DNA of 64,000 nucleotides. It comes from Planomonospora sp. ID67723. Its GTDB lineage: Bacteria > Actinomycetota > Actinomycetes > Streptosporangiales > Streptosporangiaceae. The position numbers and the translations under genes were made by a program. The stretch lies in contig NZ_JABTEZ010000002.1 of the NCBI RefSeq assembly GCF_015711605.1, positions 1,240,001 to 1,304,000 on the forward strand, in the 5' to 3' direction. The notes beneath the pieces are model-generated. The model was given only the letters and a program-made list of their open reading frames with translations, was not told the origin of the DNA and did not search any database. Positions 36,512-46,760 of the stretch are shown here, piece after piece. Position 1 is the first letter of the stretch. Each line of letters starts with the position of its first letter.

Positions 36512-37012
36512 ATGACGACGCAGGACTCGTCCGCGGTGCCGCTCGATCCGTACGCGGCGTCGCTGGGACGCAAATGGGTCTCCTCCGGCGCGCTGATCCG
36601 CGATGCGGCGGGTGCGGTGCTGCTGGTCGATCCGGTCTACAAACCGCAGTGGGACGTGCCCGGCGGCGTCGTCGAGGCCGGGGAGTCCCCCACGGCGGCA
36701 TGCCGCCGGGAACTGGCCGAGGAACTCGGCCTGGACCGGCCGACCGGACGCCTGCTGGCGGTGGACTGGATCGCGCCGCGGCCCGGCTGGCCGGACGGGA
36801 TGATGCTCCTCTACGACGGCGGCGTCCTGACCCCCGGCGAGATCGCCGCGATCCGGCTGCCGGCCGACGAGCTGGCCGGCTGGATGCTCGCCGACCCCGA
36901 CCGGGTGCCCTCGCTGGTGCCGGCGGCGCTGGCCCGGCGGATCGCCGCGGCTCTGCGGGCAGCGGCCGACGGCACGGTGATCTCCCTGGACGGCGGTCAC
37001 CCGGTGGGCTGA
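36512..37012 (+). CDS. NUDIX hydrolase
   Basis: 166 residues. The NUDIX box lies at about residues 51-73, with 'GGVVEAGESPTAACRRELAE' continuing to E-L-G-L, and satisfies G-x5-E-x7-R-E-U-x-E-E-x-G-U. The enzyme should hydrolyse a nucleoside diphosphate linked to another moiety; the substrate is not predictable. The start ATG has only a weak ribosome site. Confidence 0.92.
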   Translation: MTTQDSSAVPLDPYAASLGRKWVSSGALIRDAAGAVLLVDPVYKPQWDVPGGVVEAGESPTAACRRELAEELGLDRPTGRLLAVDWIAPRPGWPDGMMLLYDGGVLTPGEIAAIRLPADELAGWMLADPDRVPSLVPAALARRIAAALRAAADGTVISLDGGHPVG

Positions 37013-37043: not shown

Positions 37044-38285
37044 TCACCGGACGACCCGGCCGGACGGGCGGGTGGACGCTGCCGTGCCGGCCTCGGTGGG
37101 CGGTGGGGCGGCGGGCAGGGTGATGGTGAAGCAGCTGCCCGGAGCGGCCGGAGCGTAGCCGACGTCACCGCCGTGGGCGCGGGCCAGCTCCCGGGTGATC
37201 CACAAGCCCAGTCCGACCGATTCGGGGTTGGCGTCGGCGCCGCTGAACCGGGAGAACAACACCTGCTCCTTGTCTTTCGCCACGCCCGGCCCGTGGTCGC
37301 GCACGTGCACGGCGACCATGCCGTCGGCGACGGGTTCGGCGCTGACGGCGACCGGCAGGGCGCCGTGGCTGACGGCGTTGGCGACCAGATTGATGAGGAT
37401 CTGCTCCAGCCGTTCGGGGTCGGCGCGCACCCGCAGGCCGTCGGGCACCTCGACGGCGACCGGGTCGCTGACGTACCCGACGGCCTCGCGCACGGCCCGG
37501 AGCAGGTCGACGGTCTCCACATCCAGCCGCAGGCCGCCGTGGACGTCGAGGCGTTCGGCGTCCAGCAGGCTCGCGGACAGACGGCGGATCCGGTCGATCT
37601 GCCGTAGCGCCATCGAGGCGATCTGGTCGCGTTGGGGCGAGGGGAGGTCGGGGCCTTCTTCGGCGAGGATCTCCACGGCGAACTGCGCCGACGTCAGCGG
37701 GGAGCGCACATCGTGGGCCAGGGTGGCGCTGAGGGCGGCCCGCCAGCGTTCCATCCGCTCGACCTGGCTGTGGGCGCGCCGCTGGTGCTCGACCTGGCGG
37801 GCGATCAGCACCCCGACCGTCACCATGATCGGGATGAATATCACACCGCCGCTGATGGCCACGGGGCCGCGGTCGGCCGCGATCAGCGGGCCCAGATAGC
37901 TCACCGCCGCCGGCACCGCCAGCGCCAGCACCGCCCGGGGGGAGAAGTGCAGGCCGACCCAGGCGAACAGCAGCATGAAGAACGGGGCGATGCTCGTGGC
38001 CACCCCCTCGAACGCCCAGGTGGCCGTGGCCAGCAACGCCAGGGCGGGTACGCATAGCACCAGCGGCCCGTGGGACCCGAATCGCTGCCAAGGCAGCCAC
38101 CACGCCGCGGCTGCGGTGATCAGGTCCACGACCGCGACCGTGCCGAGCAGGAGCGAATTCTGGGACGGCAGAACCATCCCGGCGGCGGCCAGAGCACCGG
38201 CCACCGCGAACAACAGCCCTGCCTGGCGGGCGGTGCTGCGGACGCCTTCGCCTAGAACGGGCCCGAGTCGGGTCATCATCCTCAC
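37044..38285 (-). CDS. Orphan sensor histidine kinase
   Basis: 413 residues. About six membrane segments (residues ~20-190) are followed by a HisKA domain with the phospho-acceptor in 'LSATLAHDVRSPLTS'. The HATPase domain has an N box ('ILINLVANAVSHG'), a G1 box ('DHGPGVAKD') and a G2 box ('GLGLWITRELARAHGG'). No response regulator gene is adjacent. The signal is unknown; the multi-pass sensor suggests a membrane-embedded cue. An alternative ATG lies two codons further in. Confidence 0.92.
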   Translation of the reverse strand: MRMMTRLGPVLGEGVRSTARQAGLLFAVAGALAAAGMVLPSQNSLLLGTVAVVDLITAAAAWWLPWQRFGSHGPLVLCVPALALLATATWAFEGVATSIAPFFMLLFAWVGLHFSPRAVLALAVPAAVSYLGPLIAADRGPVAISGGVIFIPIMVTVGVLIARQVEHQRRAHSQVERMERWRAALSATLAHDVRSPLTSAQFAVEILAEEGPDLPSPQRDQIASMALRQIDRIRRLSASLLDAERLDVHGGLRLDVETVDLLRAVREAVGYVSDPVAVEVPDGLRVRADPERLEQILINLVANAVSHGALPVAVSAEPVADGMVAVHVRDHGPGVAKDKEQVLFSRFSGADANPESVGLGLWITRELARAHGGDVGYAPAAPGSCFTITLPAAPPPTEAGTAASTRPSGRVVR

Positions 38286-38611: not shown

Positions 38612-39088
38612 TCACATGTTCTCGGCGCCGGCTTTGATGGCTTCGCGGATACGAAAGTAGGTACCGCAGCGGCAGATGTTGCGGAGACCGTCGAGGTCGG
38701 CGTCGGTGATTGCGCGGCCTTCGGCGGCGGCGCGGCGGACCAGCGCCACGGCGGCCATGATCTGGCCGGGCTGGCAGTATCCGCACTGGGCGACGTCGTG
38801 GTCGAGCCATGCCTGCTGCATAGGGTGCAGGTCCTTGCCGACCGTGGCCGGAAGTCCTTCGATGGTGGTGACCTCGTCGGTCGGCTGGAGATCTGCGACG
38901 GGGATCGCGCAGGGGTTGACGGCTTTGCCGTTGATGTGGCTGGTACACGCTTTGCAGACATTGATGCCGCAGCCGTACTTCGGTCCGGTGACGCCGAGAA
39001 TGTCGCGCAGCACCCACAGCAGGCGCACGTCGCCGTCGACGTCGACGGTGACCTGCTCGCCGTTGACTCGGAAAGTGTGCTCAGGCAA
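38612..39088 (-). CDS. oxiA: OxiA: 2Fe-2S subunit of molybdenum hydroxylase (aldehyde oxidoreductase)
   Basis: 158 residues with the two-cluster ferredoxin-like pattern of small subunits of xanthine oxidase-family enzymes. 'YGCGINVCKACTSHINGK' followed by N-P-C binds the first cluster; 'CGYCQPGQI' and 'NICRCGTYFRI' bind the second. It is closest in type to isoquinoline 1-oxidoreductase alpha subunits. It lies 15 bp downstream of the molybdopterin subunit gene and closes the operon. In Streptomyces sp. K30 a homologous oxiB-oxiA pair sits beside lcp and is thought to oxidise aldehydes released from cleaved rubber. The symbol rests on that context. Confidence 0.9.
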   Translation of the reverse strand: MPEHTFRVNGEQVTVDVDGDVRLLWVLRDILGVTGPKYGCGINVCKACTSHINGKAVNPCAIPVADLQPTDEVTTIEGLPATVGKDLHPMQQAWLDHDVAQCGYCQPGQIMAAVALVRRAAAEGRAITDADLDGLRNICRCGTYFRIREAIKAGAENM

Positions 39089-39103
39089 CCGGATCTCCTT
39101 GTT

Positions 39104-41401
39104 TCAGCGGGCGTGCTTCAGGCCGTCGGTCGGGGAAGGGGGAATGGGCGGGATGGTCGGCTTGGGCGTGAAGGAAAGCGTGCCGTGGTTGATCGGGAAG
39201 CTGGTGGGCATCGTTCCGGTCGCGCGGCCGTACGCACAGGCGACCGCGGCCATCGACGCGGCGACGCCCAGTTCCCCGGCGCCGCCGGGCTTCTCGGAGG
39301 TGCTGGGCATGACGATGATCTGGAGTTCGGGCGGGGTGTTCCACTGCCGGGTGTAGAAGTAGTTGTCCCAGCTCGCTTCGAGGAAGTACCCGTCGCGCAG
39401 GTGCAGGCTGGAGGTCAGGGCCAGCGCGATGCCATCCATGATGCAGCCCATCATCTGCGCTTCCAGACCCCGCGGATTCACGGCAAGGCCGACGTCCACA
39501 GCGAACACCGCCCTGGTGACACGTGGTCCGGTCACGCCGTCGCGGACGGGACGGTTGACGGTTTCGGATCGGCAGTCGATCTCCACCAGCGCTGCGCTGA
39601 CGGCCTTGTACTCGGCGTGGAACGCGATGCCCTGCGCGGTGCCGGCCGGCATCGGCCGCCCCCAGCCGCCGACCTCGGCCACCTTCGCCAGCACCGCCCG
39701 GGAGCGGTCATCGCGGAGGAAGTCATGCCGGAACCGGTAGGGGTCCTTGCCCATCCTCGTGGCGAGCTGGTCGATGATGAGCTCCCGGGCGCAGGTGACG
39801 TCGGGCGAGTAGACGTTGCGCATGCTGCCGGTGTTGAAGCCCTTGCCCGTTTCGTTGAGCAACCGGCTGCCGCCGCCGAAGTCGTAGGACATCGCCTGGC
39901 TGAGATGGAAGAAGGTCTGGGAGAAACCGATGTCGCCCACCGGAAGCCTCGCGGCCATGGCGGTGATGATCTCACCGAGCCCGTGGCCGAGGTCCGTGGA
40001 GACGCTGGTGTGCCGCTGCTTGTAGCTCAGCACGGTGTCGCCGAGGTAGGCGACGCGTACCCGCGAGGTCGACATCGGGTGGGTGCGGCCCTGACGGGAG
40101 TCGTCGGCGCGGTGCCACATGAGCTTGACGGGTTTGCCGATCCGCTGGGACACCTCGGCGGCTTCCAGCGCGGCGTCGAAGAACAGCTTGCGCCCGAAGG
40201 AGCCACCCCCTTCGGTGACGTGCACGGTGACCTTGCCGAGCGGCAGCCCTACCTTGGCGGCGATGGCCTGCTTGGCGACGATCGGCGATTTCAAAGCCGA
40301 CCAGATCTCGGCGCGGTCGGCCCGCACGTCGGCGATCGCGCAGTTGGGTTCCAGCGCGCTGTTGCTGCGGAAGTAGAAGGTGAACCTGCCTTCGACGGTC
40401 GGAGTCGGCGGCCTGGGCCCGAGCGGCAACTCCGCGGCCTCCAGTTCCCGCAGCACGCTCTCGTCGGACTTTCCTTCCGCGGTACCGGGTTTCCAGGAGA
40501 CCCGCAGGGCGCGTACGGCGTCGATGCACTGACCGAAGGTCTCGGCGCGCACCGCCACCCCGGTGGAGATCGTCACGACATCGGTGACCCCCGGCATGGC
40601 GCGGACCTCGGCGAGGTTGGCCACCGAGCCGACTTTGCCGTTGACGGTCGGCGGGCGGCACACCATCGTCGGCTTCGCGCCCGGGATGTCGAGGTCCATC
40701 GCGAACTTCTTGCGCCCGGTCACCGCGTCCAGCGCGTCGATCCGGTTGTGCGGTCTGCCGATGACGGTGAAGTTCTCGCGTGGCATGAGCTCCACCGACA
40801 CCTGCTGGGTCCGCATGCTCGCGGCCTTCTCGGCGAGCGCGCCGATGTCGATGCCGCCACCGGAGCGATCGGTGATCACCCCGGCCCTCATCGTCAGGTC
40901 GGTGACCGCCGAGCCGAGCTCGGTGGCCGCGGCCGCCAGCAACCGGAGCCGGGCGATGGCGGCGGCGACCCGGATAGGGGTGTAGGTCGCGATGGTCGTG
41001 TTCGATCCGCCGGTGAGCTGGTTGAACACCAGCTCCGGCCGGGCATCGGCCAGCGTGACACGCACCCGTTCCAGCGGCACGGTCATTTCCTCGGCGATCA
41101 GCATGGCCGTCGAGGTGGTGATGCCCTGCCCCACCTCGGCCCGCGGCAACGCGAACGACACCGTGCCGTCCCGGTTGACCTCGACCGTGATCAGGCCCGA
41201 GGTCGGCAGCGCCGCCGCGGTCATCATGTCGTTGAGGTCGAGCAGCTCCGTGAGTTCCGGCGAAGGCAGCCGGACATCGGGCGCCGGCGTCAGGCCGAGT
41301 TCGGCGGCGGCCACCAGGGTGGGAGCCGCCACCACGTACCCGAGGAACCGTCGCCGTCCGATGGCCTCATCCAGCCCGCCTCCATTCGGTCCCGTCATCA
41401 T
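39104..41401 (-). CDS. oxiB: OxiB: molybdopterin-binding subunit of molybdenum hydroxylase
   Basis: 765 residues, typical of IorB/OxiB-type large subunits. An N-terminal twin-arginine-like segment 'RRRFLGYVVAAPTLVAAA' precedes the catalytic part. Cofactor-binding features include 'FALPRAEVGQGITTSTAMLI', 'GGSFGRKLFFDAALEAAE' and 'GGAGELGVAASMAA', the last holding the conserved catalytic Glu. With OxiA it should oxidise aldehyde ends of oligo-isoprenoids to acids. The ATG directly abuts the TGA of the upstream lcp gene, so the two are translationally coupled. Confidence 0.92.
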   Translation of the reverse strand: MMTGPNGGGLDEAIGRRRFLGYVVAAPTLVAAAELGLTPAPDVRLPSPELTELLDLNDMMTAAALPTSGLITVEVNRDGTVSFALPRAEVGQGITTSTAMLIAEEMTVPLERVRVTLADARPELVFNQLTGGSNTTIATYTPIRVAAAIARLRLLAAAATELGSAVTDLTMRAGVITDRSGGGIDIGALAEKAASMRTQQVSVELMPRENFTVIGRPHNRIDALDAVTGRKKFAMDLDIPGAKPTMVCRPPTVNGKVGSVANLAEVRAMPGVTDVVTISTGVAVRAETFGQCIDAVRALRVSWKPGTAEGKSDESVLRELEAAELPLGPRPPTPTVEGRFTFYFRSNSALEPNCAIADVRADRAEIWSALKSPIVAKQAIAAKVGLPLGKVTVHVTEGGGSFGRKLFFDAALEAAEVSQRIGKPVKLMWHRADDSRQGRTHPMSTSRVRVAYLGDTVLSYKQRHTSVSTDLGHGLGEIITAMAARLPVGDIGFSQTFFHLSQAMSYDFGGGSRLLNETGKGFNTGSMRNVYSPDVTCARELIIDQLATRMGKDPYRFRHDFLRDDRSRAVLAKVAEVGGWGRPMPAGTAQGIAFHAEYKAVSAALVEIDCRSETVNRPVRDGVTGPRVTRAVFAVDVGLAVNPRGLEAQMMGCIMDGIALALTSSLHLRDGYFLEASWDNYFYTRQWNTPPELQIIVMPSTSEKPGGAGELGVAASMAAVACAYGRATGTMPTSFPINHGTLSFTPKPTIPPIPPSPTDGLKHAR

Positions 41402-42622
41402 TCAGCTCGGGTCCGGACGGTTGGTCGTGGGAATCTCGATCTTGGTCTCCTTGGCCTTGGTGAGGTAGAGCATGATGTATCTCCGCGCCGCCTCGTCGAT
41501 GACCCAGGCGGTCTCGGGCACCAGCGGCAGCGGGATGAGGCCCTCGCGGAACTTCACCAGCTTCGGCCAGGCGGCGGGGATCACCCGGTCCCACACCGGC
41601 TCGCGCTCGATGCCGTCCCAGTCGGCCACCTGATCGCCGACCAGGTACCGGGCGAGCGCGTTGCACAGGGACCGGCTGGCCCTGGTCCCGAGGCTGGTCT
41701 GCTCGGCGAGCTGGTCCAGCAGGATGTCGGTCAGCTTCACCCCCTCGGGCGTCGGCCCCATGTTCCGGGGCAGGATCTGGTCCGACTGGGCGTCGGCCGC
41801 ATCCCAGGTGGCGGGGATGTATTCGTCCTTGATGCCGAGCATGTGCGCGGTCACCTGCCACACGTGCAGGTACGCCTCGGACTCGGCGGCAGTGACCGGG
41901 ACCTTCCATTCGAGCATCCTGCGCATCGCGAAGGTCGGCAAGGTGTGCCAGGTGACCAGCATGTCTTCCTGGCTGATCGGGATGTCGCCGGTCCAGTGGG
42001 GGGATTTCTGCAGCAGGTGTCGTACCGCCGCGTGCACCAGCCGGGTCTTCACGGCCTCGACCGCGCAGGAGCCGTCGGGCCGATAGGCGTTCAGGGACCC
42101 GACGGCGAATCCCAGGATGCTCGTCTTGGCGACGCGATCCTCCATGTCCGCGCCGCCCTTGGAGTAGTAGACCGCGCGAGCCTCCTTGGGGATGGCGGTG
42201 CTCAGCATGCCGCCGCCCACGCCGTTGAGCAGATTGAGGTACAGCCCTCTGGACTTGTTGAACTCGGCCGCGGTGTTCAGCTTGCCGTGGTCCGCCCACG
42301 ACGGCAGCCGACGTGCTTCCTCCATGAAGTCCCGCAGGTCTGCCGGCAGTCCTTCGGGCAAGGGCTGGTCGTTACGGTTCCAATCCCACAGCAGGCGGTT
42401 GACCTCGGGTACGGCGCCGCGATCGATCAGCGAGGCGACCAGCGGGTCGGCCTCCTCGTCCCACACCCACCGCGGATCGGCACCGGCGCCGGCACCCGCG
42501 ACCGAACCGCCGGGTGCCCAGGTCCAGGGCATCGCCCGGGCCGGGAACGCCATCCCCAGCGTTCCGAGAGCCCCCAGGGCTCCGCCTGAGATCAGCATCT
42601 TGCGCCTGCTCAGCTCCGCCAT
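41402..42622 (-). CDS. lcp: Latex-clearing protein (rubber oxygenase) Lcp, copy 1
   Basis: 406 residues of the Lcp/DUF2236 haem b family, which cleaves poly(cis-1,4-isoprene) oxidatively to oligo-isoprenoids with aldehyde and ketone ends. A Tat signal 'LSRRKMLISGG' marks export. The residues known from Lcp of Streptomyces K30 (E148, R164, K167, T168, axial H198) align here as E147, R163, K166, T167 and H197, within 'STAIPKEARAVYY', 'EDRVAKTS' and 'AVKTRLVHAAVRHLL'. The ATG at 42622 was chosen for the AGGAGGAG upstream and for the Tat signal. It heads the lcp-oxiB-oxiA operon. Confidence 0.94.
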   Translation of the reverse strand: MAELSRRKMLISGGALGALGTLGMAFPARAMPWTWAPGGSVAGAGAGADPRWVWDEEADPLVASLIDRGAVPEVNRLLWDWNRNDQPLPEGLPADLRDFMEEARRLPSWADHGKLNTAAEFNKSRGLYLNLLNGVGGGMLSTAIPKEARAVYYSKGGADMEDRVAKTSILGFAVGSLNAYRPDGSCAVEAVKTRLVHAAVRHLLQKSPHWTGDIPISQEDMLVTWHTLPTFAMRRMLEWKVPVTAAESEAYLHVWQVTAHMLGIKDEYIPATWDAADAQSDQILPRNMGPTPEGVKLTDILLDQLAEQTSLGTRASRSLCNALARYLVGDQVADWDGIEREPVWDRVIPAAWPKLVKFREGLIPLPLVPETAWVIDEAARRYIMLYLTKAKETKIEIPTTNRPDPS

Positions 42623-42663
42623 GCCGGACTCCTCCTGAGAGTTCTGCAAGCTGATGATATGAT

Positions 42664-42688
42664 GATACATATCAGGTATATTTGTATC
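42664..42688 (-). promoter_or_regulatory. Promoter/operator region of lcp copy 1
   Basis: An imperfect inverted repeat, GATACATAT and ATTTGTATC, spaced by 7 bases, lies ~42 bp before the lcp start. On the minus strand it contains a -10-like TATGTA. The segment resembles the one upstream of lcp copy 2, suggesting shared control, probably by the adjacent TetR protein. Confidence 0.5.
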
Positions 42689-42828
42689 TCACTAAGGATG
42701 CGAGCCGATCCCGAAAACGTCCAGGGGAACAGCCGGTCGCTTCGCGGCTCCCGGCCGGAACCCGGTGTTCCGGCCGGTTCCTCATCGATATCGAGCACGC
42801 CCGCACCGTCGTTGACCGGTGGTCCCGA

Positions 42829-44055
42829 TCAGTAGTCCGGGTTGTTGGTCAGCGGAATCTCGATGCTGATCTGCCGCGCTTCGGACAGGTAGATCAGGAC
42901 TATCTTGCGAAGGAGCTCGTCGAAGAGCCAGTAGGTGTTGTCCGCCCCGGGGAACGTCTTGAGCACGCCTTCGCGGACGGCGATGAAGGGCTCCCAGAGC
43001 GTGTCGAGGATCCCGTCCCAGAACGGATACCGGGAGATCTCCAGCCACTCGGCGATCTGGTCGCCGAGCAGGAAGCGCGTGAACGCGCCGAGTACGCGCT
43101 TGCTGAGGATGCCGGCATCCAGCGCGGCGCCGAGGTTGAGGAGGATGTCGGCCAGCTTGATGCCCTCGGGCGTCGGGGCCAGCACCGGGTCCAGGACCTG
43201 CCTGGCCTGGGAATTGGCCTCGTCCCACGACGCGGGGATGTATTCGTCCTTGATGCCGAGCATGTGCGCGGCCAGCTGCCACGAGTGCAGGAAGGCCACG
43301 GACTCGTTGGCGGGGATCGGCACCTTCCATGCGGTCAGGTTCTTCATGACGGTCGTGGGCAGGCTGTGCCAGGTGACCATCATGTCCGCCTGGCTGATCG
43401 GAATCTCCTCGTCGGCGGACTTCTGCCAGTGCGGGGACTTCGGCAGCAGGTGGCGCACGGCCGCGTGCACCAGCCGGGTCTTGACGCAGGTCACGATCAT
43501 CTCGCCGTCGGCGTCGTAAGCTTTCCTGGACCCGATGTCGTATCCGAGCTTGGCGGTCTTGGAGATGCGGTCCTTCATGTCCGCGCCGCCCTTGGAGTAG
43601 TAGACCGCGCGAGCCTCCTTGGGGATGACCGTGCTCATCATGCCGCTGGCGAAGCCGTACAGCACGCCGAGGTAGAGCCCCCGCTTGTCGTTGAACTCGA
43701 CCGCGGTGGCGAGCTTGCCCCTGTCGGCCCACGACGGCAGCCGGCGGGCTCGCTCCATGAAGTCCCGCAGGTCCGCCGGCAGTCCGGCCGGCAGCGGCTG
43801 GCCGTTCTTGGTCCAGGTCCGTAACAGGGCGTTGACCCTGGGCACGTCGCCCCGGTCGATCAGCGAGGCGACCAGCGGGTCGGCCTCCTCGTCCCATACC
43901 CACCGCGGGTCGATGCCCGCCCCTGTGCCCGCCACCGAGCCACTGGGCGACCACGTCCAGACGCGCGCCTGTGCAGGTGTCGCGACGCTCAGCGCACCGA
44001 GTGCGCCCAACGTCCCGCCCGCCTTGAGCATGTCGCGCCTGCTGAGTTTGTCCAT
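42829..44055 (-). CDS. lcp: Latex-clearing protein (rubber oxygenase) Lcp, copy 2
   Basis: 408 residues, highly similar to the downstream copy throughout, so a tandem duplication. Tat signal 'LSRRDMLKAGG'. The functional residues are again in register with Streptomyces K30 Lcp: E147, R163, K166, T167 and haem ligand H197, in 'STVIPKEARAVYY', 'KDRISKTAKLG' and 'CVKTRLVHAAVRHLLPKS'. The ATG at 44055 follows a GGACGGAGG sequence. It is separated from copy 1 by ~206 bp and diverges from the tetR gene, so it probably has its own promoter. Two enzymes may differ in polymer preference or product length. Confidence 0.94.
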   Translation of the reverse strand: MDKLSRRDMLKAGGTLGALGALSVATPAQARVWTWSPSGSVAGTGAGIDPRWVWDEEADPLVASLIDRGDVPRVNALLRTWTKNGQPLPAGLPADLRDFMERARRLPSWADRGKLATAVEFNDKRGLYLGVLYGFASGMMSTVIPKEARAVYYSKGGADMKDRISKTAKLGYDIGSRKAYDADGEMIVTCVKTRLVHAAVRHLLPKSPHWQKSADEEIPISQADMMVTWHSLPTTVMKNLTAWKVPIPANESVAFLHSWQLAAHMLGIKDEYIPASWDEANSQARQVLDPVLAPTPEGIKLADILLNLGAALDAGILSKRVLGAFTRFLLGDQIAEWLEISRYPFWDGILDTLWEPFIAVREGVLKTFPGADNTYWLFDELLRKIVLIYLSEARQISIEIPLTNNPDY

Positions 44056-44099
44056 GCCTCCGTCCCTCCTCCTCGTGAGGCCGAGAGCACTGCTGGTAC

Positions 44100-44126
44100 G
44101 ATGAAACATAAGGTGAATCTGTGTAC
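44100..44126. promoter_or_regulatory. Shared motif in the lcp copy 2 / tetR intergenic region
   Basis: The sequence from GATGAAACATAAGG to TGTGTAC matches the lcp copy 1 upstream region at most positions and lies at the same distance (~45 bp) from its start codon. On the minus strand it holds TATGTT as a -10-like hexamer with TTGGTG upstream. Its position between divergent lcp and tetR fits a TetR operator. Confidence 0.5.
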
Positions 44127-44213
44127 CACCAATACAGCACAGTGTGTCGGGCATCACAAGACCGTGGCGGCGGCTGCTGGCGATTGAGGCAGAATCAATC
44201 ACAGGAGGTGATC

Positions 44214-44894
44214 GTGGAATCTGCGCTGTCCGTGCTCATGGCGCCGTCGGACTCGGAGTCGTTGCTGGAGCGCGCGTACATTGATGCCGTCGAACGGGTT
44301 GACGACATGGACGAGACCCGTGCCCGCATCCTCGACGCGGCGTATGAGCAGTTCTGCCGCATGGGCATCCGGCGGTCCACCATGGAGGACGTGGCCCGCC
44401 GGGCCGGGGTTTCGCGGATCACGGTCTACCGGCGGTTCGCCACGAAGGACGCGCTGGTCGAACACGTGGTACGCCGAGAGTTCCGCCGGTATTTCGACCA
44501 GTTCCTCGTCGACATCGAACAAGCCCACACCGCCGCCGACCGGGCGGTCCTGGGCTTTGTGAGCTCATTGCGCGCCATCCGGCGCAACCCGTTGATCGGC
44601 GGTCTGATCGCCGCGGAACCGGATCTGATCGTACCCTCCATGATCAGCGACGGAGGCCGGACCCTCGCCACCGTGCGGCAGTTCGTCGCGGGCCAGCTCC
44701 GCCACGAGCAACGCGCGGGTAACGTGCCGAGCGGCTTGGACGCCGACCTCGTGGCCGAACTGATGGTCCGGATCTCCGCCTCCTTCCTGGCGATCCCCAG
44801 CCACATCATCGACCTCGACGACGACGAGCAGCTGGCTGCGGTGGCCCGGCGGTTCCTCGTGCCCATGCTGGAACCGGCCGGCTCCCCGGACTGA
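44214..44894 (+). CDS. TetR family regulator of the lcp/oxi cluster
   Basis: 226 residues from a GTG preceded by AGGAGGTGATC, a near-perfect ribosome site, which favours this start over frames reading further upstream. After a ~35-residue leader the TetR helix-turn-helix runs 'GIRRSTMEDVARRAGVSRIT' then 'VYRRFATKDALVEHVV'. The C-terminal ligand domain is all helical. It diverges from lcp copy 2, the arrangement of LcpR-type repressors in rubber-degrading actinomycetes. It probably represses lcp-oxi transcription until a rubber degradation product binds. Confidence 0.9.
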   Translation: MESALSVLMAPSDSESLLERAYIDAVERVDDMDETRARILDAAYEQFCRMGIRRSTMEDVARRAGVSRITVYRRFATKDALVEHVVRREFRRYFDQFLVDIEQAHTAADRAVLGFVSSLRAIRRNPLIGGLIAAEPDLIVPSMISDGGRTLATVRQFVAGQLRHEQRAGNVPSGLDADLVAELMVRISASFLAIPSHIIDLDDDEQLAAVARRFLVPMLEPAGSPD

Positions 44895-45191: not shown

Positions 45192-45611
45192 AGTTTCAAC
45201 CCAGCGGATGTATGCTGCGAGCCCTCTCCGGACTAATGTTCCCCCAGCGGCCTCTCGTATGGACATCTGGAATCCGGCTGCCCTCAAAGGGAAGGTTCAA
45301 TGCACATGAGTCCGGCTCATACTGGCTTTACCGGCCGGAACGATCCGGTCCTGCTCGTGAATAGGCGTCGGCTATCCGATCTCGTCGCATGAGAACGTTG
45401 TGACGCTGTTCCATCTCGGACGAGGGCGCCGGTGTATCCACCACGGCCGGCACGACCTCATGGCGTGACCGGTCCGCTGCCTCGCAATGAGATCCGCTTT
45501 TCGGTGAATCGCCGTCTCCTGCATCCGGCGACTCCGCTCCACAGGATTTTGAAGGTCCATTCCCTGTGCCGGTTTCGTGGGCGCGTAGGAGAATCAGGAG
45601 AAAGGGCCTGC

Positions 45612-46760
45612 ATGAGAGCAGCACTCGCCGTCATCTCCACTCTGCTCGTGGCTGTGCTGACGGCCTGCGGCACACTGCCGGACGGAGCCGGGAGCGGCAG
45701 CCGGGAGCGCCGGCCCTCCGCGGCCCAGCGGTCCGCCCCGCCGGTCGCCGCCTCATCTCAACCCCCCGCAGAGCACGAAACCGCCTCGCCGCAGCCCGCC
45801 GCCGAACCGGCCGGCTGTCCTCGCGGCCAGCTCATCCCCGCCCTGGAGATCCCGGCCGTGCACGCCGAACCGGTCCACGTCCCCGAGATGACGATCGGCG
45901 GTGAGAAGGTGCCGGCGGTCACCGTTCCCGGGGTGGACATCCCGGCCCAGCGGATTCCCGCCCAGTGCACCGAGATCAAGCCCGCCCCCGGCGGCTGCCT
46001 CGGCGCGGCCAGTATCCCGCCGGTGACGATCCCGGCCGTGGAGATCCCTGCGGTGGAGATTCCGGGGGTGAACGCGGGCGGCGTCAGAATCGACCCTGTG
46101 CGCACCGAGGCTGTCAGCGCCGAGGCGGTTCACGCTGAAGGCGTCTCCACGCCTGAGGTGTGTCAGACCAAGCCGAAAGACGGCGGAATCGTCCCGTTCG
46201 TGATCAGGCCGTTCGTGATCAGACCGTTCGTCATCCGCCCCTTCGTCATCCGTCCTTCGAAGTGCAACGATCAGGGCGAATGCGTCCCCAGCGTGGAGGT
46301 GCCCGCGGTGGAGGTGAAGGCCGTCGAGGTGAAGGCCGTGGAGATCCCCGCAGCCGAGCTGAAGATGTACGAGATCGGCGAGAGCGAGGTCCTGGAAGGC
46401 GAGGGCGCGATCGCCTTCAGCCTCAACGCGGATGTCCTGTTCGACTTCGACAGCGCCGTCGTCAAACCGGCCGCTGCGGCCGAGCTGAAGCGCATCGCCC
46501 GTCAGATCACCGGGAAGTCCGCCCCGGACGCGGCTGTTCGCGTCGACGGCCACACCGACTCCCGGGGCGAGGGCGCCTACAACATGACCCTGTCCCGGAA
46601 ACGCGCGCGGGCCGTCCTGGAATGGCTGGCCACCGAGGGCGGGCTGGACCGCTCACGGCTTGAGGCCGCCGGGTACGGCGAGAGCAAGCCGGTCCAGCCG
46701 AACAGCACCGAGGAGGGCCAGACGAAGAACCGCCGTGTGGTGATCTCCACCGGCACCTGA
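45612..46760 (+). CDS. OmpA-family lipoprotein with pentapeptide-like repeats
   Basis: 382 residues. The lipoprotein signal ends in L-T-A-C (C19). A Pro-rich region leads into a long repetitive section. It contains many VEIPAVEIP-like units, then F-V-I-R-P four times around residues 195-216, then VEVPAVEVKAVEVK. The C-terminal ~125 residues form an OmpA/MotB-type peptidoglycan-binding domain with 'VRVDGHTDSRGEGAYNMTLS' and 'AAGYGESKPV'. It is predicted to be membrane-anchored by lipid and bound to peptidoglycan. The repeats could form an elongated beta-solenoid spacer between the two. The role is structural or envelope-linked by inference. Confidence 0.87.
   Translation: MRAALAVISTLLVAVLTACGTLPDGAGSGSRERRPSAAQRSAPPVAASSQPPAEHETASPQPAAEPAGCPRGQLIPALEIPAVHAEPVHVPEMTIGGEKVPAVTVPGVDIPAQRIPAQCTEIKPAPGGCLGAASIPPVTIPAVEIPAVEIPGVNAGGVRIDPVRTEAVSAEAVHAEGVSTPEVCQTKPKDGGIVPFVIRPFVIRPFVIRPFVIRPSKCNDQGECVPSVEVPAVEVKAVEVKAVEIPAAELKMYEIGESEVLEGEGAIAFSLNADVLFDFDSAVVKPAAAAELKRIARQITGKSAPDAAVRVDGHTDSRGEGAYNMTLSRKRARAVLEWLATEGGLDRSRLEAAGYGESKPVQPNSTEEGQTKNRRVVISTGT

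Follow-up and report, generated by a model that had tools for sequence, protein, structure and literature searches.

The 64,000-nucleotide stretch analyzed here (hereafter the window), from the genome of the soil actinobacterium Planomonospora sp. ID67723, carries a five-gene cluster predicted to degrade rubber (cis-1,4-polyisoprene). It comprises a tetR gene, two genes for latex-clearing-type rubber oxygenases that we call lcpA and lcpB, and the hydroxylase genes oxiB and oxiA. The lcp and oxi genes all lie on the minus strand, in the order tetR <-> lcpA-lcpB-oxiB-oxiA (Table 1). An earlier sequence-only reading had described an adjacent lcp pair with oxiB-oxiA and a divergent tetR, which the gene calls bear out. 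It had also proposed that lcpB, oxiB, and oxiA are coupled, and the coordinates agree: the oxiB ATG immediately follows the lcpB TGA, and oxiB and oxiA are separated by 15 bp that include AAGGAG. The two lcp genes are 206 bp apart; this gap, absent from the earlier reading, proves the more informative part of the cluster. We interpret the cluster as a rubber degradation operon of a known kind in which an internal promoter under TetR control probably survives from the fusion of two older units, a reading to which we assign a probability of roughly 85%. It draws on the gene identities, the catalytic residues, the gene order, the separate old descent of the two Lcp proteins, and two copies of an operator-like element.

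Table 1. Features of the rubber degradation cluster and its flanks, in window positions
Feature	Position	Strand	Remarks
NUDIX hydrolase gene	36512-37012	+	Downstream of oxiA
Sensor histidine kinase gene	37044-38285	-	Downstream of oxiA
oxiA, [2Fe-2S] subunit	38612-39088	-	TTG start; Fer2_2 and Fer2 domains
oxiB, molybdopterin-binding subunit	39104-41401	-	MoCoBD_1 and MoCoBD_2; N-terminal twin-arginine motif RRRFLG
lcpB, rubber oxygenase	41402-42622	-	406 aa; twin-arginine signal MAELSRRKM...
Operator 2 (predicted)	42656-42688	-	GATACAAATATACCTGATATGTATCATCATATC; 34-66 bp upstream of lcpB ATG; matrix score 41.0
Inverted repeat, 11 bp, perfect	42751-42777	-	Hairpin without T run; overlaps tetR relic
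tetR relic, 64 bp (putative)	42762-42825	+	Directly behind lcpA stop; orientation of a tetR divergent from lcpB
lcpA, rubber oxygenase	42829-44055	-	408 aa; twin-arginine signal MDKLSRRDM...
Operator 1 (predicted)	44095-44127	-	GGTACACAGATTCACCTTATGTTTCATCGTACC; 40-72 bp upstream of lcpA ATG; matrix score 45.7
CRP/GlxR-like box	44143-44158	-	TGTGATGCCCGACACA; one mismatch to TGTGAN6TCACA; tetR-lcpA intergenic region
tetR, LcpR-like single-domain regulator	44214-44894	+	226 aa; GTG start behind AGGAGGT; divergent from lcpA
OmpA-domain protein gene	45432-46760	+	Lipobox-like start; strings of AVEIP- and PFVIRP-type repeats

Scored against PF09995 (MPAB_Lcp_cat), a check suggested by the sequence-only reading, the two Lcps reach 58.8 and 58.7 bits, well over the cut-off of 23. 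Each also matches the Lcp of Streptomyces sp. K30 (5O1L) over nearly its full length (E = 2.5e-157 for LcpA and 2e-155 for LcpB). The five functional K30 positions are kept in both proteins at the offset of one residue claimed earlier: E148, R164, K167, T168, and H198 of K30 align with E147, R163, K166, T167, and H197. These positions, including the haem ligand His198, are present in every row of the three main clades (A, B, and K) of the Lcp tree described below, outside of which four rows fall (L031_5308, L068_1781, L045_8116, and L051_7001). Twin-arginine motifs stand near both starts (SRRDML in LcpA and SRRKML in LcpB); PF10518 was matched by LcpA only, at 20.4 bits, which is under its cut-off of 22.7.

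In the tree, both proteins group with K30 Lcp and with Lcp2 and Lcp3 of Dactylosporangium AC04546. Because the tree holds Lcps only, and far weaker matches lie outside it, this grouping rests on score together with that tree. We regard LcpA and LcpB as probable Lcp-type rubber oxygenases, with rubber cleavage taken from published relatives. PF09995 does, by its family name, include enzymes that do not act on rubber, and the activity of the window Lcps is a prediction. Nevertheless, it is quite improbable that the two are PF09995/DUF2236 oxygenases of this other sort, given the near full-length K30 matches, the retention of all five catalytic residues, and the activity on rubber of counterparts in two strains. 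Purified Lcps of Actinoplanes sp. OR16 show latex-dependent oxygen use, with Lcp1 and Lcp2 both active on latex (PMC7413915), and crude extracts of each of the three Lcps of AC04546 yield aldehydes from rubber (PMC11169899).

Next to the lcp genes are encoded a large molybdopterin subunit and a [2Fe-2S] small subunit, the composition expected of an OxiAB hydroxylase. The genes found behind oxiB in relatives are 81-96% identical to oxiA, with one exception at 66% (locus L050). The twin-arginine motif of OxiB recurs in 40 of 41 relatives, the remaining one reading RRRFF. This agrees with published descriptions of OxiAB as secreted (PMC8235351) or as thought to act extracellularly on account of its twin-arginine translocation (Tat) signals (PMC11169899).

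To place the two lcp genes among their relatives, we used 75 named loci, each with ~7 kb on either side, from one contig scan whose patterns derived from the two Lcps of the window itself. In 28 of the 75, lcpB comes directly after a clade-A lcp, a count that is no unbiased frequency because the loci are no random sample; a would-be 29th tandem (L031) was left out on account of a distant Lcp-like gene in front. The tandem copy had been called the less usual part of the cluster, a view that neither this count nor the published OR16 and AC04546 clusters support (PMC7413915, PMC11169899). Other arrangements are lcpB followed by lcpA (two loci, L023 and L044), lcpB-oxiB-oxiA followed by lcpA (four loci, L021, L028, L030, and L033), and lcpB paired with a K30-type gene (five Streptomyces loci).

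In a tree of 121 Lcps, which like the other trees here comes from a quick search without bootstrap, the proteins fall into clade A (66 rows; SH-aLRT branch support 97), clade B (43 rows; 99), and a K30 clade (8 rows; 99). LcpA and LcpB are 61% identical to each other but up to 93% (LcpA) and 89% (LcpB) identical to their counterparts in other species. The two lineages also differ in their partners. A full oxiB is present in 39 of the 42 loci with lcpB, the exceptions being L023, which has oxiB fragments, L038, and L045; L038 stops at a contig end, so the missing gene counts little there. None of the 30 loci with lcpA but without lcpB has a full oxiB within the ~7-kb flanks, and 20 of these 30 have a divergent tetR. 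Thus, lcpA can occur without oxiB, whereas lcpB nearly always occurs with it.

These data show that lcpA and lcpB are old, separate lineages and not products of a recent duplication. Adjacency and 61% identity might by themselves suggest that one lcp gene was recently duplicated in tandem for dosage. That explanation is exceedingly improbable and is contradicted by the Lcp tree: each gene is closer to its counterparts in other species than to its partner, the two belong to clades that each span several families, and the same pair also occurs in reversed and split order. Because the lineages differ in their oxiB partnering, and because order and pairing vary, the tandem looks like the repeated meeting of two gene units. 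For the question of why some rubber degraders hold several lcp genes, the comparison offers two lineages with different partners. In this 8.34-Mb genome the lcp genes are these two, and no third match was found at E values up to 0.001.

Several relatives carry partial or decaying genes. Partial oxiB-like stretches of 205 and 187 residues lie directly behind a lone lcpA in two Micromonospora (L062, 8420-9034, and L068, 8302-8844) and are possibly remnants of a lost oxiB. Decaying relatives of the cluster include a Herbihabitans lcpB interrupted by a stop within its matched region, together with a divergent oxiB (L050, 7001-8179), Saccharopolyspora indica with only oxiB fragments (L023, 9650-9910), and a genome in which a second lcp is reduced to approximately its last 95 residues, beside an 89% identical oxiB (G071, C112:32770-33051).

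The TetR protein has a single TetR_N domain (52.8 bits, scored on a longer frame of the gene), and its length is the size given for the OR16 counterpart (PMC7413915); it is not of the two-domain LcpRB-A3(2) type of ~400 residues. In relatives, tetR genes divergent from lcp are 64-92% identical to it, with 64% for the neighbor in Gordonia hankookensis. Two Dactylosporangium loci carry a second tetR, 73-74% identical to that of the window and 1.2-1.4 kb past the lcp-adjacent one (L020, 3032-3706, and L026, 2899-3573).

Upstream regions of the relatives' lcp genes share a 33-bp element with the consensus GATACacaGAagCannnnntGTtTCAnCGTATC. A regular expression for it matches 62 of 116 such regions, many of the others being short gaps. 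Across 1.11 Mb of loci there are 68 matches, of which 62 are upstream of plus-strand lcp genes and the remaining six, judged by coordinates, are inside lcp promoter regions too; five shuffled sets of the loci gave none (our shuffled controls, here and for the CRP-like box, preserve base composition only). The window has two copies, one before each lcp gene. With a position weight matrix built from the 62 sites of relatives alone, whose own scores range from 34.0 to 53.6, the best window site overlapping neither copy scores -5.9, and omitting five near relatives from the matrix still leaves operator 1 at 44.6 and operator 2 at 37.0.

Genome-wide, these two sites are the only zero-mismatch matches to a shorter operator pattern and the only ones within three mismatches of a longer pattern. 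Allowing one mismatch in the pattern returned both operators, the reverse reading of one of them, and a site at C4:144369; the latter was not recovered by the longer pattern at up to three mismatches and was rejected as a further target. Two LcpR sites quoted for Gordonia polyisoprenivorans VH2 fit the same 5-15-5 layout (PMC7413915). We take the element to be the predicted LcpR operator. A compact consensus of this kind makes rubber-gene regulation testable in strains for which irregular palindromes were formerly quoted.

The distance of the second operator from lcpB is about that seen at free-standing lcpB-oxiBA loci. Where tetR directly adjoins lcpB, the regular expression finds the operator in eight of nine loci, and the ninth (L045) has one slightly further out. 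Six further loci begin with lcpB and have no tetR listed directly before it: three have the operator by regular expression (L021, L028, and L030), one by matrix (L031, 36.1), and one in a form one letter off, seen by eye (L033); none was seen in the sixth (L043). The gap between lcpA and lcpB also holds a tetR-like scrap, which aligns with the middle of the tetR genes of Planomonospora venezuelensis and Planobispora rosea at a score of 78 with a one-base gap, compared to 58 for the window's own tetR and 40 for the best of 200 shuffles. Among 13 other lcp-lcp gaps, no such relic was found beyond a weak score of 44 in Streptosporangium canum, the others scoring at most 36.

Divergent tetR-lcpB pairs are known elsewhere, as in L023, L044, and L050. 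Most simply, a tetR <-> lcpB-oxiB-oxiA unit would have become attached behind lcpA and then lost nearly all of its tetR by deletion. The 358-bp gap of S. canum (L013, 6643-7000), with its tetR-like score of 44 and a decayed operator (matrix score -0.9), is perhaps an older stage of the same joining process. The window gap can also form a hairpin, and the stretch 42623-42850 folds at z = -3.2; the inverted repeat is a possible, speculative attenuator.

Several observations weigh against this interpretation of the cluster. Neither Lcp reached an NCBIfam model, and the partial stretches in L062 and L068 indicate that lcpA is not always free of oxiB. The regular expression and pattern for the operator were devised after viewing the window with its relatives, only the matrix being derived from relatives alone, and the quoted OR16 lcp1 binding site fits just the right half of the layout (PMC7413915). 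An operator precedes lcpB in only 3 of the 28 other A-B tandems (L014, L020, and L026), where 18 gaps are long enough for scoring and 10 are too short. The relic is just 64 bp long and contributes 15 codons in the TetR frame, and the gene trees inside the cluster conflict over the history of the joining. Finally, the OR16 data favor one transcript starting at lcp1 (PMC7413915).

The last point, together with the 25 tandems that lack a gap operator, would suit a plain single operon, in which all four genes are transcribed from the tetR-controlled promoter ahead of lcpA and operator 2 is a non-functional leftover; in OR16, lcp1-lcp2-oxiB-oxiA was found to be co-transcribed by reverse transcription PCR (PMC7413915). 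We consider this a serious alternative, but the less probable one. Operator 2 scores within the range of the relatives' sites and far over background, its placement resembles that in free-standing lcpB-oxiBA loci, and the stable hairpin that can form in the gap also argues against a plain operon.

The two promoter regions may further differ in a second regulatory signal. The CRP/GlxR-like box upstream of lcpA approximates TGTGAN6TCACA, a sequence similar to TGTGAN6TCACT, which PMC8235351 quotes as the reported CRP motif of Gordonia VH2. We classed 101 of the 116 upstream regions by BLAST label, excluding 15 lcpA-labelled regions without an adjacent tetR. A box within two mismatches occurs in 36 of the 52 tetR|lcpA regions (~5% in shuffled sequence) and is absent from the other 16. 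By contrast, no box is present in the 49 regions that precede lcpB or separate two lcp genes. These comprise nine tetR|lcpB regions, 13 regions of at least 90 bp between lcp genes (some of whose second genes are of the lcpA or K30 type), and 27 further lcpB starts, of which 21 are short. Since about one chance box would be expected in the 28 of these regions that are at least 85 bp long, what counts is the contrast with the 36 of 52 tetR|lcpA regions. The lcpA-lcpB gap of the window likewise has no box, the best site there carrying four mismatches.

Sequence differences between the two Lcp lineages are also apparent. At a threshold of 88% within each clade, clades A and B are nearly fixed to different residues at 30 positions. 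Ten of these fall at K30 131-141 and 165-175, near Glu148 and Arg164-Lys167-Thr168 in sequence, as opposed to distance in three dimensions; the two stretches were picked after seeing the list, which makes P = 9e-7 too good. We treat these positions as a lead for two specificities and no more. The passages on published relatives describe Lcps that differ in the strength of their activity on rubber and mention no substrate difference (PMC7413915, PMC11169899). By primer positions, AC04546 Lcp2 corresponds to lcpA and Lcp3 to lcpB (the Lcp2 reverse primer lacks an exact match). Because AC04546 Lcp2 gave the strongest color and is paired with Lcp1, the most active OR16 enzyme, lcpA probably encodes the stronger latex cleaver here too. 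The AC04546 paper pairs OR16 Lcp2, which has lower latex activity, with the lcpB counterpart (PMC11169899); if LcpB acts mainly on oligomers together with OxiAB, that lower activity would be explained.

The proposal that the cluster combines rubber cleavage and aldehyde oxidation under its own TetR is backed by sequence, phylogeny, gene order, and close published counterparts. By analogy with these counterparts, LcpA and LcpB would act as exported b-type haem oxygenases that cleave the polymer into oligo-isoprenoids with aldehyde and keto ends, and OxiB-OxiA, a molybdenum/[2Fe-2S] hydroxylase, would oxidize the aldehyde ends, giving acids destined for uptake and beta-oxidation. TetR binding at an lcp promoter is likewise carried over, as the adjacent TetR protein of OR16 (ACTI_59620) binds the lcp1 promoter (PMC7413915). 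For regulation and substrate specificity in the window itself, we infer the following from sequence. TetR would repress two promoters, the one between tetR and lcpA and an internal one ahead of lcpB-oxiB-oxiA, and its repression would be lifted by an isoprenoid signal. The lcpA promoter may also answer to a CRP-type regulator, to which the internal promoter would not respond. The internal operator and the tetR scrap would be what remains of a tetR <-> lcpB-oxiB-oxiA unit that once stood alone and was later attached behind tetR <-> lcpA. A bolder version of this model seems doubtful to us: that the cluster is a half-way fusion of two TetR units in which a CRP-independent promoter allows LcpB and OxiAB (for oligomers) to be set separately from LcpA (for polymer), with LcpB having a distinct substrate range through its fixed differences.

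Of the genomes compared, P. venezuelensis is the closest (gyrB 96.3%, a second gyrB/parE gene 95.3%, and part of rpoB 98.1%, the rpoB comparison being without Streptosporangium amethystogenes, G201). This same-genus genome and both Planobispora genomes each have a single close lcp and lack an OxiB match at 1e-100. OxiB at least 83% identical is found in 16 of 297 genomes of the family, the present one included. In DNA, the lcpB-oxiBA block is 93.2% identical to that of S. amethystogenes, whereas gyrB reaches 90.2% and the second gyrB/parE gene 89.5%; the corresponding values for Planomonospora ID82291 are 89.5% for the block and 94.7% for gyrB. The window groups with S. amethystogenes in the OxiB tree (98) and, more weakly, in the tetR tree (91), but with ID82291 in the LcpB tree (97). 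LcpA groups with sequences from Planobispora, Planomonospora, and S. amethystogenes (100), Planobispora being nearest by path.

Recombination among related clusters is likely. In one scenario, a Streptosporangium-like donor supplied lcpB-oxiB-oxiA and its operator by horizontal transfer, and the block was inserted behind a tetR-lcpA pair already present. The missing OxiB matches, the excess identity of the block to S. amethystogenes, and the OxiB pairing all favor such a transfer, and we hold it to be plausible without preferring it. The pairing of lcpB with ID82291 is consistent with vertical inheritance accompanied by losses and by rapid evolution of the ID82291 copy, and the leaning of tetR toward S. 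amethystogenes also counts against the transfer. The neighboring histidine kinase gene is matched in four of six relatives, never beside lcp (~57 kb off in G016), and the OmpA-like gene is matched in one of the six (G016, 75% identical), on a different contig from lcp. The flanks therefore cannot tell a loss in P. venezuelensis from a gain here.

In open full-text literature searches, two of which listed 10 of 33 and 10 of 1,550 papers, no title or abstract opening among the papers listed dealt with an operator consensus, a second operator, a relic of tetR, or the split between lcpA and oxiBA-linked lcpB, which is weak evidence that these four points are novel. The regulatory and evolutionary detail added here would accordingly be new in a modest way.

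Compared to known systems, the cluster most resembles those of OR16 and AC04546. It shares with OR16 the gene order, the Tat-exported Lcps, a single TetR beside lcp1, and oxiBA downstream, but OR16 carries a third lcp at another place, next to a gene for a two-domain TetR, compared to two lcp genes here (PMC7413915). AC04546 (L026) has the identical order, with identities of 80% for tetR and lcpA, 83% for lcpB, and 84% for oxiB and oxiA, and an operator before its second lcp as well, GGTACAAAGAAACACTTAACGTATCTGCGTATC. It differs in having a third lcp elsewhere (PMC11169899) and a 97-bp gap in which no tetR relic was found. Streptomyces sp. K30 shares the Lcp fold, the catalytic residues, and the oxiBA neighbors (PMC3426405, PMC5522427), but has one lcp (PMC9108482), whose product falls in the third clade, as do the second copies of Streptomyces tandems. 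LcpR of Gordonia polyisoprenivorans VH2 is likewise a TetR regulator of lcp (quoted in PMC7413915 and PMC8235351), and the LcpR-type features of a single TetR domain and a gene divergent from lcp are both found here; Gordonia, however, is described as having no oxiAB, and the two lcp genes of VH2 are on its chromosome and a plasmid (PMC7413915, PMC11169899). The cluster is thus of the OR16/AC04546 type, a kind already described in relatives.

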